Position numbers and translations under genes: made by a program
Shown: one piece after another, positions 14,651 through 37,613 of the stretch
Layout: each line of letters opens with the position of its first letter
How positions within the stretch are numbered: position 1 is the stretch's first letter
Notes under the pieces: generated by a model
Told to the model about the DNA's origin: nothing
The model's input: the letters and a program-made list of their open reading frames with translations, nothing else
Databases searched by the model: none
Assembly (NCBI GenBank): GCA_013388435.1
Contig: JACAFE010000026.1
Location: 1 to 37,613, forward strand
Source: Nitrospirota bacterium
Lineage (GTDB): Bacteria > Nitrospirota > Thermodesulfovibrionia > Thermodesulfovibrionales > SM23-35
Length of the DNA stretch: 37,613 nt
Direction: 5' to 3'

Positions 14651-14694
14651 TCTATTAGCATAACATAGAGCGAAGAGCAAAAAAGGCTGAAGGC

Positions 14695-14820
14695 GATAGC
14701 GTTTATAGCGTTCATTGCGTTCATAGCGTTTATAGCGTTTATTGCGTTTATTGCGTTTATTGCGTTATAGCGTTTATTGCGTTATAGCGTTATAGCGTTT
14801 ATTGCGTTGTAGCGTTTATC
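14695..14820 (-). repeat. AACGC-WAY(R) tandem array A (14 units by hand count), reading on the minus strand
   Basis: Plus strand is (GCGTT + TATA/TATT/CATT/CATA/ATA/GTA) repeated with mixed 9/8-bp spacing. Confidence 0.95.
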
Positions 14821-14841
14821 AAATAGCATAGAGCGAATAGC

Positions 14842-14866
14842 AAAAAAAGGCTGAAGCCTTCAGCCT
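14842..14866 (-). terminator. Candidate intrinsic terminator for the opp/dpp operon, built from repeat sequence
   Basis: Minus strand GGCTGAAGGCTTCAGCC followed by TTTTTTTG; downstream of the minus-strand ABC transporter operon. Confidence 0.5.
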
Positions 14867-15037
14867 TCAGCCTAACGCCTTCAGCCTATGATAGTTTATT
14901 TTGATTCATAAATTGAATTATTGCCAGTAAACAACCTCTCTATTCTATTTAATAAAGTAGGAATCAAAAGGGGGATGAGGGCTGAAGAATAAGACAAACA
15001 ATAAACAATTACGGTTAATTCGATTGAATTTTTCTGA

Positions 15038-15898
15038 TTAACCCTGTTCAGCTTCCCAGAGTCTTGGATCAAAAGCATCTCTTATTCCTTCGCCTAATAA
15101 ATTATACCCGAGAACTGTTAAAAGAATAGCGAACCCCGGGAAAACAGAGAGCCACCATGCAATTTCTATGTTGTCTTTGCCAAGTGTAAGAATATTTCCC
15201 CATGTTGGTGTCGGAGGCTGAACTCCAAGTCCGAGAAAACTTAGACCTGATTCAAGGAGCACAGCACCTGCTATTCCAAGAACCGCTGAAACAAAAACAG
15301 GTGCAAGACTGTTGATTAGAATATGCTTAAAAATAATTCTTTTATCACTAACTCCTATAGCTTTTGCAGCAAGCACAAATTCCCGCTCCTTTAAAGATAG
15401 GAATTCAGCCCTTACAAGTCTTGCAACACCCATCCACGAAGTAAGTCCTATAACAACCATTATGTTCCAGATGCCTGGGCCTATAAAAGCAATTACAGCA
15501 AGAATCAGAAAAAAGGTTGGTATTGTTAGCATTATATCGATGAATCTCATAATTATTCTGTCAGTCCATCCACCATAATAGCCTGCTATAGAACCAAAGA
15601 AAATTCCAATAATTGTTGATATTCCAACCGCGACAAAGCCGACCAGCAAAGAGGTGCGCGCGCCATAAAGCATTCTGCTGAAAACATCCCTTCCGAGGTC
15701 ATCAGTGCCAAAAGGGTGTTTGAAAGAAGGTGGCTCAAGTATATGATTTCTATCAATATCATTCTGATTATATGGGGAAAACAAAGGAGCAAACATGGCA
15801 ATAATAAAAAGCAAAAAAACAATAATTGCGCCTATTACAGCAATTTTATTTCTCTTGAATCTTTTCCAGAAAATATTTCTTAATAAAGAAGTCTTCAT
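15038..15898 (-). CDS. Peptide/nickel-type ABC transporter permease (DppC/OppC family)
   Basis: HPFGTDDLGRDVFSRMLYGARTSLLVG; ESGLSFLGLGVQPPTPTWGNIL. Confidence 0.93.
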   Translation of the reverse strand: MKTSLLRNIFWKRFKRNKIAVIGAIIVFLLFIIAMFAPLFSPYNQNDIDRNHILEPPSFKHPFGTDDLGRDVFSRMLYGARTSLLVGFVAVGISTIIGIFFGSIAGYYGGWTDRIIMRFIDIMLTIPTFFLILAVIAFIGPGIWNIMVVIGLTSWMGVARLVRAEFLSLKEREFVLAAKAIGVSDKRIIFKHILINSLAPVFVSAVLGIAGAVLLESGLSFLGLGVQPPTPTWGNILTLGKDNIEIAWWLSVFPGFAILLTVLGYNLLGEGIRDAFDPRLWEAEQG

Positions 15899-15901
15899 AG
15901 T

Positions 15902-16897
15902 TTAATGTCTGATTCTCGGGTCAGCGAGCATATAACCTATATCTGCAAGAAGGTTCCCGAGAAGTGTCAGGAACCCTACTATAATTACTATTCCCATAAT
16001 AACAGGATAATCACGGGTCATAACACTCATAAAAAGCAACTGACCCATGCCGGGAATACCAAATATGCTTTCCATTATTACACTACCTCCGATAAGTCCG
16101 GGGACTGAAAGTCCAATAAGTGTAATTAAAGGCAGAAGCGCGTTTCTCAGAGCATGCCTGTAAATTACAATCCTCTCAGGAAGTCCTTTTGCTCTTGCAA
16201 CTTTTATGTAATCCTGTCTTATCACTTCAAGCATACTGCTTCTCATATACCTTGAATCTCCGGCAAGGCCACCAAATGCATAGACAAATACAGGTAATAT
16301 AAGATGATTTATCCTGTCAATTATTTTGCCTGCGAGGGATAAAGAATCATAATTCATTGATTTCAACCCCGAGATTGGAAGCCATCCGAGATATACTCCA
16401 AAAAACATCATAAGAAGAAGAGCCAGCCAGAAAGATGGCGTAGCAAAGCCAATAAATACAGAAGTAGTTGTAATCCTGTCATAAAGAGTATTCTGGTGTG
16501 TGGCAGATGTAATACCTAAAGGGATTGCTATTACTAAAATTACAAACATTGTTATAACATTCAACATGAATGTTATAAATAATCTTCTTTCAGTCAAGGG
16601 TTGTTTTTTATCCCATATTTTATCAATAACAGGCCTTCTGTCAGAGGAGAAAGATTCTCCAAAATCAAACTTCACTATTTTGTTAAGCCATAAAACATAT
16701 TGGACGATAACGGGTTTATCAAGATTGTACATTTTTTCGAGTCTTTCTCTGGCTTCGGGTGTTATTTTTGGATTGAAATCTGCAAGGACATCAGTTGGTT
16801 TTCCCGGGGCAAGATGCAGTATCATAAAAGAAATCAGTGTAATACCGAACAGAGTGGGTATCATTTCAAAGATCCTTTTAAAAAGGTAGTTAATCAT
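15902..16897 (-). CDS. Peptide/nickel-type ABC transporter permease (DppB/OppB family)
   Basis: YLFKRIFEMIPTLFGITLISFMILHLAPG; DYIKVARAKGLPERIVIYRHALRNALLPLITLIG. Confidence 0.94.
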   Translation of the reverse strand: MINYLFKRIFEMIPTLFGITLISFMILHLAPGKPTDVLADFNPKITPEARERLEKMYNLDKPVIVQYVLWLNKIVKFDFGESFSSDRRPVIDKIWDKKQPLTERRLFITFMLNVITMFVILVIAIPLGITSATHQNTLYDRITTTSVFIGFATPSFWLALLLMMFFGVYLGWLPISGLKSMNYDSLSLAGKIIDRINHLILPVFVYAFGGLAGDSRYMRSSMLEVIRQDYIKVARAKGLPERIVIYRHALRNALLPLITLIGLSVPGLIGGSVIMESIFGIPGMGQLLFMSVMTRDYPVIMGIVIIVGFLTLLGNLLADIGYMLADPRIRH

Positions 16898-18544
16898 CTA
16901 AGGCTCCATAGCATGTTTTTGCAAAGGTTTTGGTACATACCATTTCGGGAGATTATAGCTTATACCTATTGGAGAAGGTTTTATTCCTTTAAATCTCGAA
17001 TGAACAATTGGGGTAGCATCAGGCACATAAAGAAAAATATAAGGAAGTTCTTCTGCAAGAATTTCCTGTATTCTGAAATAAATTTTTTTTCTTTCTCCGG
17101 TATTAAAAGTTCTCCGGCCTTTCTCAAGAAGTTCGTCCACTTCAGGATTATTATAACCTATGAAGTTGAATTCTTTTTCTCTTGTTTTGCTTGAATGCCA
17201 TATATCATATTGATCAGGATCAGGACTTATGCTCCAGCCGAGTATCACTGCTTCGAATCTTCTTTTATCAATAAATTCATTGACAAATGTTGACCATTCA
17301 AGCACCCTGATATTTACTTTTATTCCAATTTTTGCGAGTCTCCACTGGATAATGGTAGCTGTATTTTTTCTTAGATTATTTCCCATATTTGTGAGTATCG
17401 TAAATTCAAATGGTTTCCCATCCTTATCGAGAATCCCGTCACCATTGGTATCTTTCCATCCAGCTTCTCTCAGGAGTTGTTTTGCTTTTTCTGGATTGTA
17501 TTCATAATTTTTTACATCAGGATTATAAGGCCATGTATTCGGGACATAAGGTCCTGTAGCAGGGCTACCGAGTCCGAATAGAACAACGTCTATTATTTCT
17601 TTTTTGTCAATCGCATAAGCTATTGCCTGTCTTATACGTTTATCTTTGAACCATGGATGTCTTAAATTAAAAGCCATGTGTGTATAGGAGAATACAGGAT
17701 AACGGAATTTCTGGAAATTTTTCTTAAATATTTCGGTATCAGTCTGTTTTGTATATTGAAGAGGAGTCAGACCCATCATATCAAGCCCTCCAGCCTGAAG
17801 TTCGAGAAACATTGTTGCAGGGTCAGGGATAATTCTATAGATATATCCATCAATATAAGGTCTTCCTTCAAAATAATCTTTATAAGATTCAAGAATAAGT
17901 TCCTGCCCCGGAACCCATTTTTTCAATTTATAAGGTCCCAGTCCAACAGGTTCTCTTGTCATTGTGGTTTTTGTGATATCTTTGCCTTTAAGTAAATGTT
18001 CGGGCAGTACTACAAGATTTCCCCATGAACTCAAAGCAGGAGCAAAAGGTTTCTTATATGTAACTCTAAAAGTATATTTATCGAGCACCTCGGCTTTGCT
18101 TACCTGCAAGAAATCTTCTTTATATGCAGTCGGTGTCTTTTCATCAATAATTGTATTGAAACCAAACAATACATCACTTGCTGTGAATTCGACTCCATCA
18201 GACCACTTAACGCCTTTTTTTAAATGGAATGTAATTATAAGTCCGTCTTTTGATATTTCCCATGATTCAGCGAGGTCGCCAATTATACTCAAATCAGTAT
18301 CATATTTAACAAGTCCGTTGAATATAAGCCCTGCAATATCATGAGATGCGCTGTCACCCGCAAGCATCGGGATTAATACAGAAGGCTCACCTATTGAACC
18401 TGTAATGAGTGTATCTCCATAAGCAGGCTCGTACCCGGTTTCTTTGGTATCGGATTGGATGTAAGAGACAGATTTCTCTTTACAGCCTGTTAATAATATA
18501 AGGAGCATAAAAATGTATAACAAATTCTTTCTGAGAAATATCAT
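16898..18544 (-). CDS. Extracellular solute-binding lipoprotein, SBP family 5 (DppA/OppA)
   Basis: Lipoprotein signal LLILLTGCKEKS; AESWEISKDGLIITFHLKKGVKWSDGVEFTASDVLFGF. Confidence 0.94.
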   Translation of the reverse strand: MIFLRKNLLYIFMLLILLTGCKEKSVSYIQSDTKETGYEPAYGDTLITGSIGEPSVLIPMLAGDSASHDIAGLIFNGLVKYDTDLSIIGDLAESWEISKDGLIITFHLKKGVKWSDGVEFTASDVLFGFNTIIDEKTPTAYKEDFLQVSKAEVLDKYTFRVTYKKPFAPALSSWGNLVVLPEHLLKGKDITKTTMTREPVGLGPYKLKKWVPGQELILESYKDYFEGRPYIDGYIYRIIPDPATMFLELQAGGLDMMGLTPLQYTKQTDTEIFKKNFQKFRYPVFSYTHMAFNLRHPWFKDKRIRQAIAYAIDKKEIIDVVLFGLGSPATGPYVPNTWPYNPDVKNYEYNPEKAKQLLREAGWKDTNGDGILDKDGKPFEFTILTNMGNNLRKNTATIIQWRLAKIGIKVNIRVLEWSTFVNEFIDKRRFEAVILGWSISPDPDQYDIWHSSKTREKEFNFIGYNNPEVDELLEKGRRTFNTGERKKIYFRIQEILAEELPYIFLYVPDATPIVHSRFKGIKPSPIGISYNLPKWYVPKPLQKHAMEP

Positions 18545-18757
18545 CGTTTAAGTATAACCGAATAATTCATACATTGCTAAAAAATATTTAGCCTGATAAT
18601 TATAATTTAAATATAATATCCGGGCTGAATTTCTGAAACAATTTAACCTGCTATATTTAAAATGTAAAACTCTTTACATAAAATACAATTGAAACAATGC
18701 AGATATTGCAAACAAATTTATTTTTTTAACAACCCTTTCTATAAATGGTTATATGGC

Positions 18758-18827
18758 CATGAGTCATGAGTCAATAGCCAATAGTCGTGAGCAAAGAGCC
18801 ATTAGCAAAGAGTCATTAGCTATTTGC
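18758..18827. repeat. Degenerate 7-bp-period array (10 heptamers)
   Basis: CATGAGT CATGAGT CAATAGC CAATAGT CGTGAGC AAAGAGC CATTAGC AAAGAGT CATTAGC TATTTGC, no indels. Confidence 0.9.
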
Positions 18828-19019
18828 CGTAATTTTGTATTATTTTTTTGCTCTTCGCCCACTTCCCCTTTGTTAAGGGGGTCAGGGGGTTGTATATTCC
18901 TTTGTCAAGTTATTTATAAGGTTGTTTACTATAAGCTCTTCGCTTGTTGTTTTTTATTCTTCAGCCTTCAGCCTAAAGCCTTCAGCCTTTTTTTGCTAAT
19001 CGCTCTATGTTATTTGATA

Positions 19020-19088
19020 AACGCTATAACGCAATGAACGCTATAACGCTATGAACGCAATAAACGCTATAACGCTATGAACGCTACC
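19020..19088 (+). repeat. AACGC-WAY(R) tandem array B (8 units)
   Basis: AACGCTAT AACGCAATG AACGCTAT AACGCTATG AACGCAATA AACGCTAT AACGCTATG AACGCTACC. Confidence 0.95.
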
Positions 19089-19192
19089 GCCTTCAGCCTT
19101 TTTTATGAGATAAGTTCCCCTCTACTAAGAGGGGTGCAGGGGTGTGTAAGCTGTTTTGCGCCTTTGCGCCATATTCCTTACAGTTTTAAATA

Positions 19193-19251
19193 AACGCTTT
19201 AACGCAATAAACGCTATAACGCAATAACGCTATAACGCAATGAACGCTATC
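19193..19251 (+). repeat. AACGC-WAY(R) tandem array C (7 units)
   Basis: AACGCTTT AACGCAATA AACGCTAT AACGCAAT AACGCTAT AACGCAATG AACGCTATC. Confidence 0.93.
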
Positions 19252-19296
19252 GCCTTCAGCCTTTTTGAGCCGGGAGAAATGTCTGTATTTTTCGGG

Positions 19297-22857: not shown

Positions 22858-23163
22858 TATGAAAATATTATAATTTATATATCAAAACAATGCATTCAAA
22901 ATAATGCATATGTTAAAAAAATTTTCCTTTCTATAACAACCCTTTCTCCCTCTTTTATAATTGGTTATAGAGCCATGACCCATTAGCTATTTGCCGTAAT
23001 TTTGTATTATTTTTTTATTTGCTCTCCGCTCACTTCCCCCTTTGTTAAGGGGGTCAGGGGGTTGTATATTCCTTTGTCAATTTAGTTATAAGTTTTTTAT
23101 TGGCAATAATTCAATTTATGAATCAAAATAAACTATCATAGGCTGAAGGCTTTAGGCTGAAGG

Positions 23164-23187
23164 CTGAAGGCTTCAGCCTTTTTTTAT
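23164..23187 (+). terminator. Candidate hairpin plus T-tract inside R3
   Basis: GGCTGAAGGCTTCAGCC followed by TTTTTTT; same sequence as the R1 hairpin in the opposite orientation. Confidence 0.4.
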
Positions 23188-23214
23188 TCGCTATTCGCTC
23201 TATGCTATTTGATA

Positions 23215-23396
23215 AACGCAATAACGCAATAAACGCTACAACGCAATGAACGCAACAAACGCTATGAACGCTACAACGCAATGAACGCTACAACGCAATA
23301 AACGCTACAACGCAATAAACGCAATAAACGCAACGAACGCAACAAACGCTATGAACGCTATAACGCTATAACGCTATAAACGCTATGAACGCTATT
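23215..23396 (+). repeat. AACGC-WAY(R) tandem array D (21 units, the longest)
   Basis: 21 AACGC cores with spacers AAT/AATA/TAC/AATG/AACA/TATG/AACG/TAT/TATA/TATT. Confidence 0.95.
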
Positions 23397-23516
23397 TGCC
23401 TTCATCCTTTTTGAGTTAGGGGTAATGTCTGTATTATCTGGTTCAGGTTAAATTTTTTTATTTAAATTTCCGATACATATATAAGTAAAAGCTTTTAACG
23501 TTTGAACGAGGCCGGG

Positions 23517-36809: not shown

Positions 36810-37038
36810 CCCGGCTATACTTTTAGATTAACCCAAAAAATACATTTGAAATAATGCAGATGTTGCGAAAAAATGCATTTTTCTATAATAGACCCATTGA
36901 TCCCTTTTTCTAATTGGTTATATAGCCATGAGCCATTAGCTATCTGCCGTAATTTTGTATTATTTTTTTATTTGCTATCAGCTATTCGCTATTTGCCAGA
37001 TTCCCCCTTTGTCAAGGGGGATTAAGGGGGTTGTTTAT

Positions 37039-37205
37039 TGGCAATAATTCAATTTATGAACCAAAATAAACTACCTTAATATAAAAACATTGCTTTATTT
37101 TATATTTTTATGTAGTTACCTATTTTATCTCTGAGGCTTACGCTTCGACTTCAGCCTCAGTGAAAAGAGACCCGTGATTTTGTTTCATAAATTGAATTAT
37201 CGCCA
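37039..37205. mobile_element. MITE-like 167-bp element E1 with ~29-bp terminal inverted repeats
   Basis: Left arm TGGCAATAATTCAATTTATGAACCAAAAT; right arm (revcomp) TGGCGATAATTCAATTTATGAAACAAAAT; internal hairpin CTGAGGCT...AGCCTCAG. Confidence 0.8.
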
Positions 37206-37310
37206 TTTGATTATGTTAATAGTTTTTACTATAAGCTCTTCGCTTGTTGTTTGTTTTATTCTTCAGCCTTCAGCCTTTTTTTTGCGCCGTGCTCCGTGCA
37301 GTTTTAATTA

Positions 37311-37378
37311 AACGTTACAACTCAACGAACGCAATAACGCTATAACGCTATAAACGCAACGAACGCAACAAACGCTTT
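37311..37378 (+). repeat. AACGC-WAY(R) tandem array E (8 units, decayed at the 5' end)
   Basis: AACGTTAC AACTCAACG AACGCAAT AACGCTAT AACGCTATA AACGCAACG AACGCAACA AACGCTTT. Confidence 0.9.
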
Positions 37379-37447
37379 TTGCCTTCAGCCTAAAGCCTTC
37401 AGCCTTTTTTATTCCCCCTTTGTTAAGGTGGTCAGGGGGTTGTTTAC

Positions 37448-37613
37448 TGGCAATAACTCAATTTATAAAACAAAATAAACTACCTTTGTATAAAAACATG
37501 GCTTTATCTTATTTTTGATGTAGTTGCCTATTTTATCTCTGAGGCTTACGCTTCGACTTCAGCCTCAGTATAAATAGACCCGTGATTTTGTTTTATAAAT
37601 TGAGCTATTGCCA
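37448..37613. mobile_element. MITE-like element E2, second copy of E1; ends at the last base of the window
   Basis: Left arm TGGCAATAACTCAATTTATAAAACAAAAT; right arm (revcomp) TGGCAATAGCTCAATTTATAAAACAAAAT; same internal hairpin. Confidence 0.8.

Follow-up and report, generated by a model that had tools for sequence, protein, structure and literature searches.

AACGC-core tandem arrays in a Nitrospirota genome as a probable module of a MITE-like dispersed element

Repeat arrays and surrounding elements at the locus

The window, that is, the whole stretch of 37,613 nucleotides that was analysed, carries opp transporter genes and five tandem arrays of a short unit, AACGC-WAY(R), in which an AACGC core is followed by a W-A-Y spacer and an optional R. 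Array A (14695-14816, - strand) consists of 14 units, array B (19020-19088, + strand) of 8, array C (19193-19251, + strand) of 7 and array D (23215-23396, + strand) of 21. Array E (37311-37379, + strand) has 6 clean units (37328-37379) and, upstream of these, two degenerate ones, AACGTTAC and AACTCAACG. The first unit of array C, AACGCTTT, also occurs at another locus behind an identical leader. The hand count in the first-pass annotation, 14+8+7+21+8 = 58 units, 2 of them degenerate, is thus reproduced, and so is the two-length period, the core spacing within arrays being 8 or 9 bp and nothing else.

The three-unit pattern has 44 matches in the window and 0 in 100 dinucleotide-preserving shuffles. 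A scan of the source genome (G000) with the unit expression, proposed in the same annotation, yields 378 three-unit matches (225+153) and 0 for the reversed control; the repeats number in the hundreds in this species. About one fifth of the genome was sampled as contiguous stretches, to which targeted loci were added. The claim that the arrays are non-coding agrees with the sampled set, where 16 of 19 arrays lie outside open reading frames of at least 90 aa; array B overlaps just the final few codons of a 94-aa frame that runs through the repeats. Sampled arrays are 9-1029 bp from the nearest gene in mixed orientations, with no consistent orientation or distance relative to neighbouring genes.

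The arrays of the window lie in composite elements. Element D (22893-23440, + strand) encloses array D between an L-type end at ~22893-22915, 319 bp before the array, and an R-type end at ~23423-23440, 23 bp after it. It contains a CCCCCTTTGTTAAGGGGG hairpin repeat (23036-23063, + strand) that recurs in other elements; a GGCAATAATTCAATTTATGAATCAAAATAAACTATCATA module (23100-23139, + strand), which is half of a palindromic module; terminator-like AGGCTGA heptads (23140-23187, + strand), arranged as an inverted repeat ahead of a T run; and a leader, ATTCGCTATTCGCTCTATGCTATTTGATA (23188-23214, + strand), directly before the first AACGC unit. The palindromic module is complete in element E (36846-37613, + strand), where GGCAATAATTCAATTTATGAA...TTCATAAATTGAATTATCGCC occupies ~165 bp (37040-37204); this element has an L-type end at 36846-36865 and runs off the contig end. 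Element B/C (18686-19293, + strand) has TIR-like ends at ~18692 and ~19277-19293, and element A (14660-15038, - strand) has degenerate ends and no clear TIR. The segment with the opp transporter genes (15039-18594) is bounded by elements A and B/C.

The composite element and its congeneric comparison

The arrays had been described as free-standing, a description that has to be replaced: most of them form a single module within a larger dispersed element, bounded by TIRs, whose parts keep a fixed order and orientation. The composite is intergenic, ~0.25-0.7 kb long, and combines terminal inverted repeats (TTAACCCAAATAATGCAGACATTG...) with ordered modules. Two related end types face each other, as terminal inverted repeats do, and the genome contains 75+79 (~154) matches to these inverted-repeat ends, compared with 2+2 for the reversed control. 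An R-type end lies within 250 bp downstream in 20 of the 33 testable array groups, where ~1.6% is expected by chance; in 18 of these 20 it is 2-71 bp away, always of the R type and in one orientation, and the other 13 groups have no detectable downstream end. An upstream end is found within 700 bp in 19 of 27 groups.

The module order, read from whole intergenic regions, begins with the inverted-repeat left end, the CCCCCTTTGTTAAGGGGG hairpin and the palindromic module or its half, continues with GGCTGAAGGC heptads and a T run, a leader ending in TTTGATA or TTTTAATTA, and the array, and closes with an optional 121-bp four-hairpin insert and second array, GCCTTCAGCCTTTTTT and the right end; modules vary, and some copies are without some of them. 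Identical leaders precede arrays at several loci. The 121-bp module, (YTTCCA + hairpin) x4, occurs in at least 15 places (e.g., L240, L248, L034 and L024 in G000) at 98-100% identity and therefore appears to have spread recently; where fully read, it lies between AACGC arrays. The printed elements span 71-567 bp between their ends and are AT-rich, and no transposase gene was seen in them by eye. Most bare copies have TTAA at both outer ends, a palindrome that may itself belong to the ends. The family shares three traits with MITEs: terminal inverted repeats, shortness with no transposase gene, and dispersed copies with empty orthologous sites.

A rival reading takes the composite as a transcribed structured or regulatory RNA, such as a 3' UTR or an attenuator, in which the array would be an unstructured stretch separating hairpins. 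Hairpins and the terminator-like GGCTGAAGGC/GCCTTCAGCCTTTTTT indeed flank the arrays on both sides, and several complete elements give better folds than shuffles, whichever strand is taken, but MITE-like elements would be expected to have hairpins in any case. Moreover, Rfam gives 0 matches at gathering score within the window, the orientation to flanking genes is random, the array strand is weakly paired in the folds (0.31-0.57), and the fold of element D has z=0.0 on the array strand (-3.3 on the other strand). An RNA module is accordingly a very improbable reading. A tRNA search found nothing.

Comparison with a congeneric genome (G001), which has ~86% nucleotide identity to the source genome over 135 kb of aligned DNA, provides a clear within-genus contrast: 0 three-unit matches as opposed to 378. 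In ~440 kb of each genome, two-unit matches number 0 in G001 and 134 in G000. Some orthologous sites are empty in G001; for example, at C44:40496-41101, where G000 has a 606-bp element, the orthologous site consists of a few bp.

In the window, the ~3.5-kb segment 15039-18594 runs in the opposite direction to its counterpart in G001 (L313). Its ends coincide with element A, with the array on the - strand, and element B/C, with arrays on the + strand; in G001, one end has no element and the other has an old degenerate right end. The simplest reading is that insertion in the G000 lineage was followed by recombination between two inverted elements, which would have produced the inversion. Being bounded by two array-bearing elements, the inversion suggests that such elements reshape gene order. 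Genome-wide, the proximity of synteny breaks to inverted-repeat ends amounts to no more than a trend (4 of 11, with 1.8 expected, p=0.07). A separate observation concerns a 3.7-kb region of G000 (C53:30330-34040, L243) that has no alignment to the G001 sample and lies at a synteny break, with inverted-repeat ends on either side.

Unit grammar and unit order

The 328 internal units used for the unit statistics come from 51 arrays, at both sampled and targeted loci. Nine words account for nearly all spacers. The AAT spacer is followed by no fourth nucleotide in 30 units, by A in 62 and by G in 53, and the TAT spacer by none in 54, A in 56 and G in 11, such that both unit lengths occur with either. 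The AAC spacer is followed by a purine in 39 of 39 cases (A 25, G 14) and always makes a 9-bp unit, whereas TAC has R in 0 of 10 and always makes an 8-bp unit (Fisher p=2e-10 for unit length). The W-A-Y-(R) spacer is, then, constrained as had been noticed; it is not freely variable, its nine words showing strong W/Y/R coupling. The core is near-invariant, also as noticed, with ~9 changes in ~340 units, mostly at the G, giving AACTC or AACAC.

The arrangement of units bears on the most conventional explanation, an ordinary short tandem repeat whose growth reflects slippage in replication or unequal crossing-over inside single arrays. The units do lie head-to-tail in tandem with varying copy number, TRF reports higher-order periods of 17, 26 and 52 bp, and two-unit words are repeated within arrays slightly more often than expected (26 and 19.8, p=0.037). 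Adjacent identical units, however, number 31 against 36.6 expected and repeated three-unit words 2 against 2.7, so slippage within each array is disfavoured, as the first-pass annotation had surmised from the lack of homogenisation. The mixed 8/9 period and the fixed place of the arrays within a dispersed composite also speak against it, and no local block duplication that would explain the unit order was found. We regard this account as improbable; a by-product of replication is conceivable in principle.

Non-randomness of spacer order, which had been proposed for scrutiny, takes the form of a weak lag-1 dependence between neighbours and does not extend to an excess of identical neighbours. 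At lag 1, the W-W and R-to-next-W associations are significant; W-W is not at lag 2 or 3, and R-W is again at lag 3. Different arrays have three-, four- and five-unit words in common more often than shuffles (p 0.017, 0.003 and 0.023). Taken together, these unit statistics speak against slippage inside single arrays and are in keeping with exchange among copies, the tests being many and the effects modest.

Origin of the arrays and related systems

We consider it likely, with a probability of roughly 0.7, that the arrays form the inner part, variable in copy number, of non-coding, TIR-bounded elements of a MITE-like family dispersed in intergenic regions of this species, and that their unit order was scrambled by recombination between copies. 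Under this scenario, the element would be moved by a trans-acting transposase preferring TTAA-like targets; the array would grow out of a few founder types of unit within a single copy and spread along with the element; and recombination or gene conversion among the numerous copies, with the AACGC core supplying homology, would then scramble unit order. That homology probably also drove the inversion in the window. The scrambling step is supported indirectly, and the weak lag-1 dependence that is present between units counts against it. The scenario requires no host function. Any parent transposase element would have to match the end sequence CCCAAATAATGCAGACATTG. A search of the IS1380 family turned up no transposase with these ends: they are present in 0 of 10 fetched IS1380-family loci, and IS1380 is rejected as a parent for those loci.

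Bare elements of ~165 bp are found in G000, G001 and G007, and G000 also has an array between the same ends. Element ends are present in 7 of the 21 genomes examined, all from one family, with 15 ends in G001. Arrays of similar grammar lie outside the element in related genomes (G006 L003, G032 L006 and BMS3Bbin05 L001), and therefore an array can exist without it. A phylum-wide search for the 9-bp grammar gives 2 of 118 genomes. In a separate genome-wide pattern scan, the non-Nitrospirae among the matches listed have mostly homogeneous 8- or 9-bp repeats. Element D has no match in phage and plasmid collections, and a literature search with the literal unit strings returned no relevant paper.

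Three loci are recorded in their own right. In G032 (L006, ~1500-1560), an 8/9-bp array lies, by eye, just upstream of an apparent rpoB start; the Nitrospirae genome S009_28 (WFMM01, L041-L124) has many 9-bp AACNCNAYN arrays; and in G006 (L003, 1-260), AACGC units are interspersed with 14-bp units, AACGGTTTTTTATT.

The wider occurrence of the grammar is relevant to the possibility that the arrays are binding sites for a DNA-binding protein that recognises AAC-N-C-N-A-Y, with selection keeping the core while spacers drift and the clustered sites serving nucleoid organisation, silencing or titration. The near-invariant core with variation confined to other positions, and adjacent identical units that are not enriched, are what such selection would leave. 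The positional grammar AACNCNAYN recurs in S009_28, BMS3Bbin05 and an Elusimicrobia bin, but these loci were fetched by the AACGCWAY pattern, with AAC as the anchor for their units, and part of the likeness in grammar is therefore ascertainment. In mixed 8/9 arrays of other genomes, nearly all of the few 8-bp units have T. Founder haplotypes with recombination would likewise leave the core unchanged, however; the arrays are absent in the congeneric G001 and therefore not essential to the genus; and the orientation and distance of neighbouring genes are inconsistent. Protein binding thus appears rather unlikely. Also unlikely is a reading in which the AAC-N-C-N-A-Y grammar, its fixed and variable positions alike in arrays of several bacterial groups and its 8-bp units mostly with T, would reflect a shared undescribed constraint, either a bound protein or templated synthesis, that builds and preserves arrays, the MITE-like element having merely spread them in the source species.

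If the MITE-like reading holds, a seemingly cryptic repeat code would come down to the inner, filler-like part of a mobile-like element and would not constitute a new regulatory code. The family would also be a natural system for asking what keeps a bacterial tandem array from homogenising, exchange among dispersed copies or selection acting on the core.

Several known repeat systems resemble this one in part. The cyanobacterial STRR heptamers are degenerate short 7-bp tandem units scattered over intergenic regions. Heptads of this kind are also present in the window, AGGCTGA and GCTATTC, whereas the array unit is 8/9 bp, not 7, and lies inside TIR-bounded composites. The TAACTGA heptamers of marine Beggiatoaceae form many intergenic direct-repeat sets with a patchy distribution across phyla; their unit is a uniform 7 bp, and the short sets lie mostly just upstream of start codons (MacGregor 2015, PMC4679880). 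The AACGC arrays resemble them in forming numerous sets of short direct repeats between genes and in being patchy across phyla but have a two-length unit, belong to a larger element and lie at no fixed distance from start codons. Bacterial MITEs, of which Nezha (mentioned in PMC3049150) is an example, are, like the present elements, short, non-coding, TIR-bounded and multi-copy; here, the interior is replaced by repeat modules, which makes many copies larger than the bare element.

A close counterpart is the BOX element of Streptococcus pneumoniae, boxA-(boxB)n-boxC, a dispersed, intergenic, MITE-like repeat that has many copies in one species, is scarce or absent in close relatives and is considered parasitic (Croucher et al. 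2011, PMC3049150). The two families share fixed end modules around a variable number of internal tandem modules, a likeness that is architectural only, as well as high copy number in one species with scarcity or absence in close relatives. Unlike BOX, to which it is unrelated in sequence, the present family has an internal unit of 8/9 bp where boxB is larger, contains further modules, including a second array and the four-hairpin insert, and has no identified parent IS. The AACGC arrays are a real feature, well beyond what chance would give, and for the most part appear to be explained as the inner tandem module of a dispersed MITE-like family whose architecture resembles that of pneumococcal BOX.
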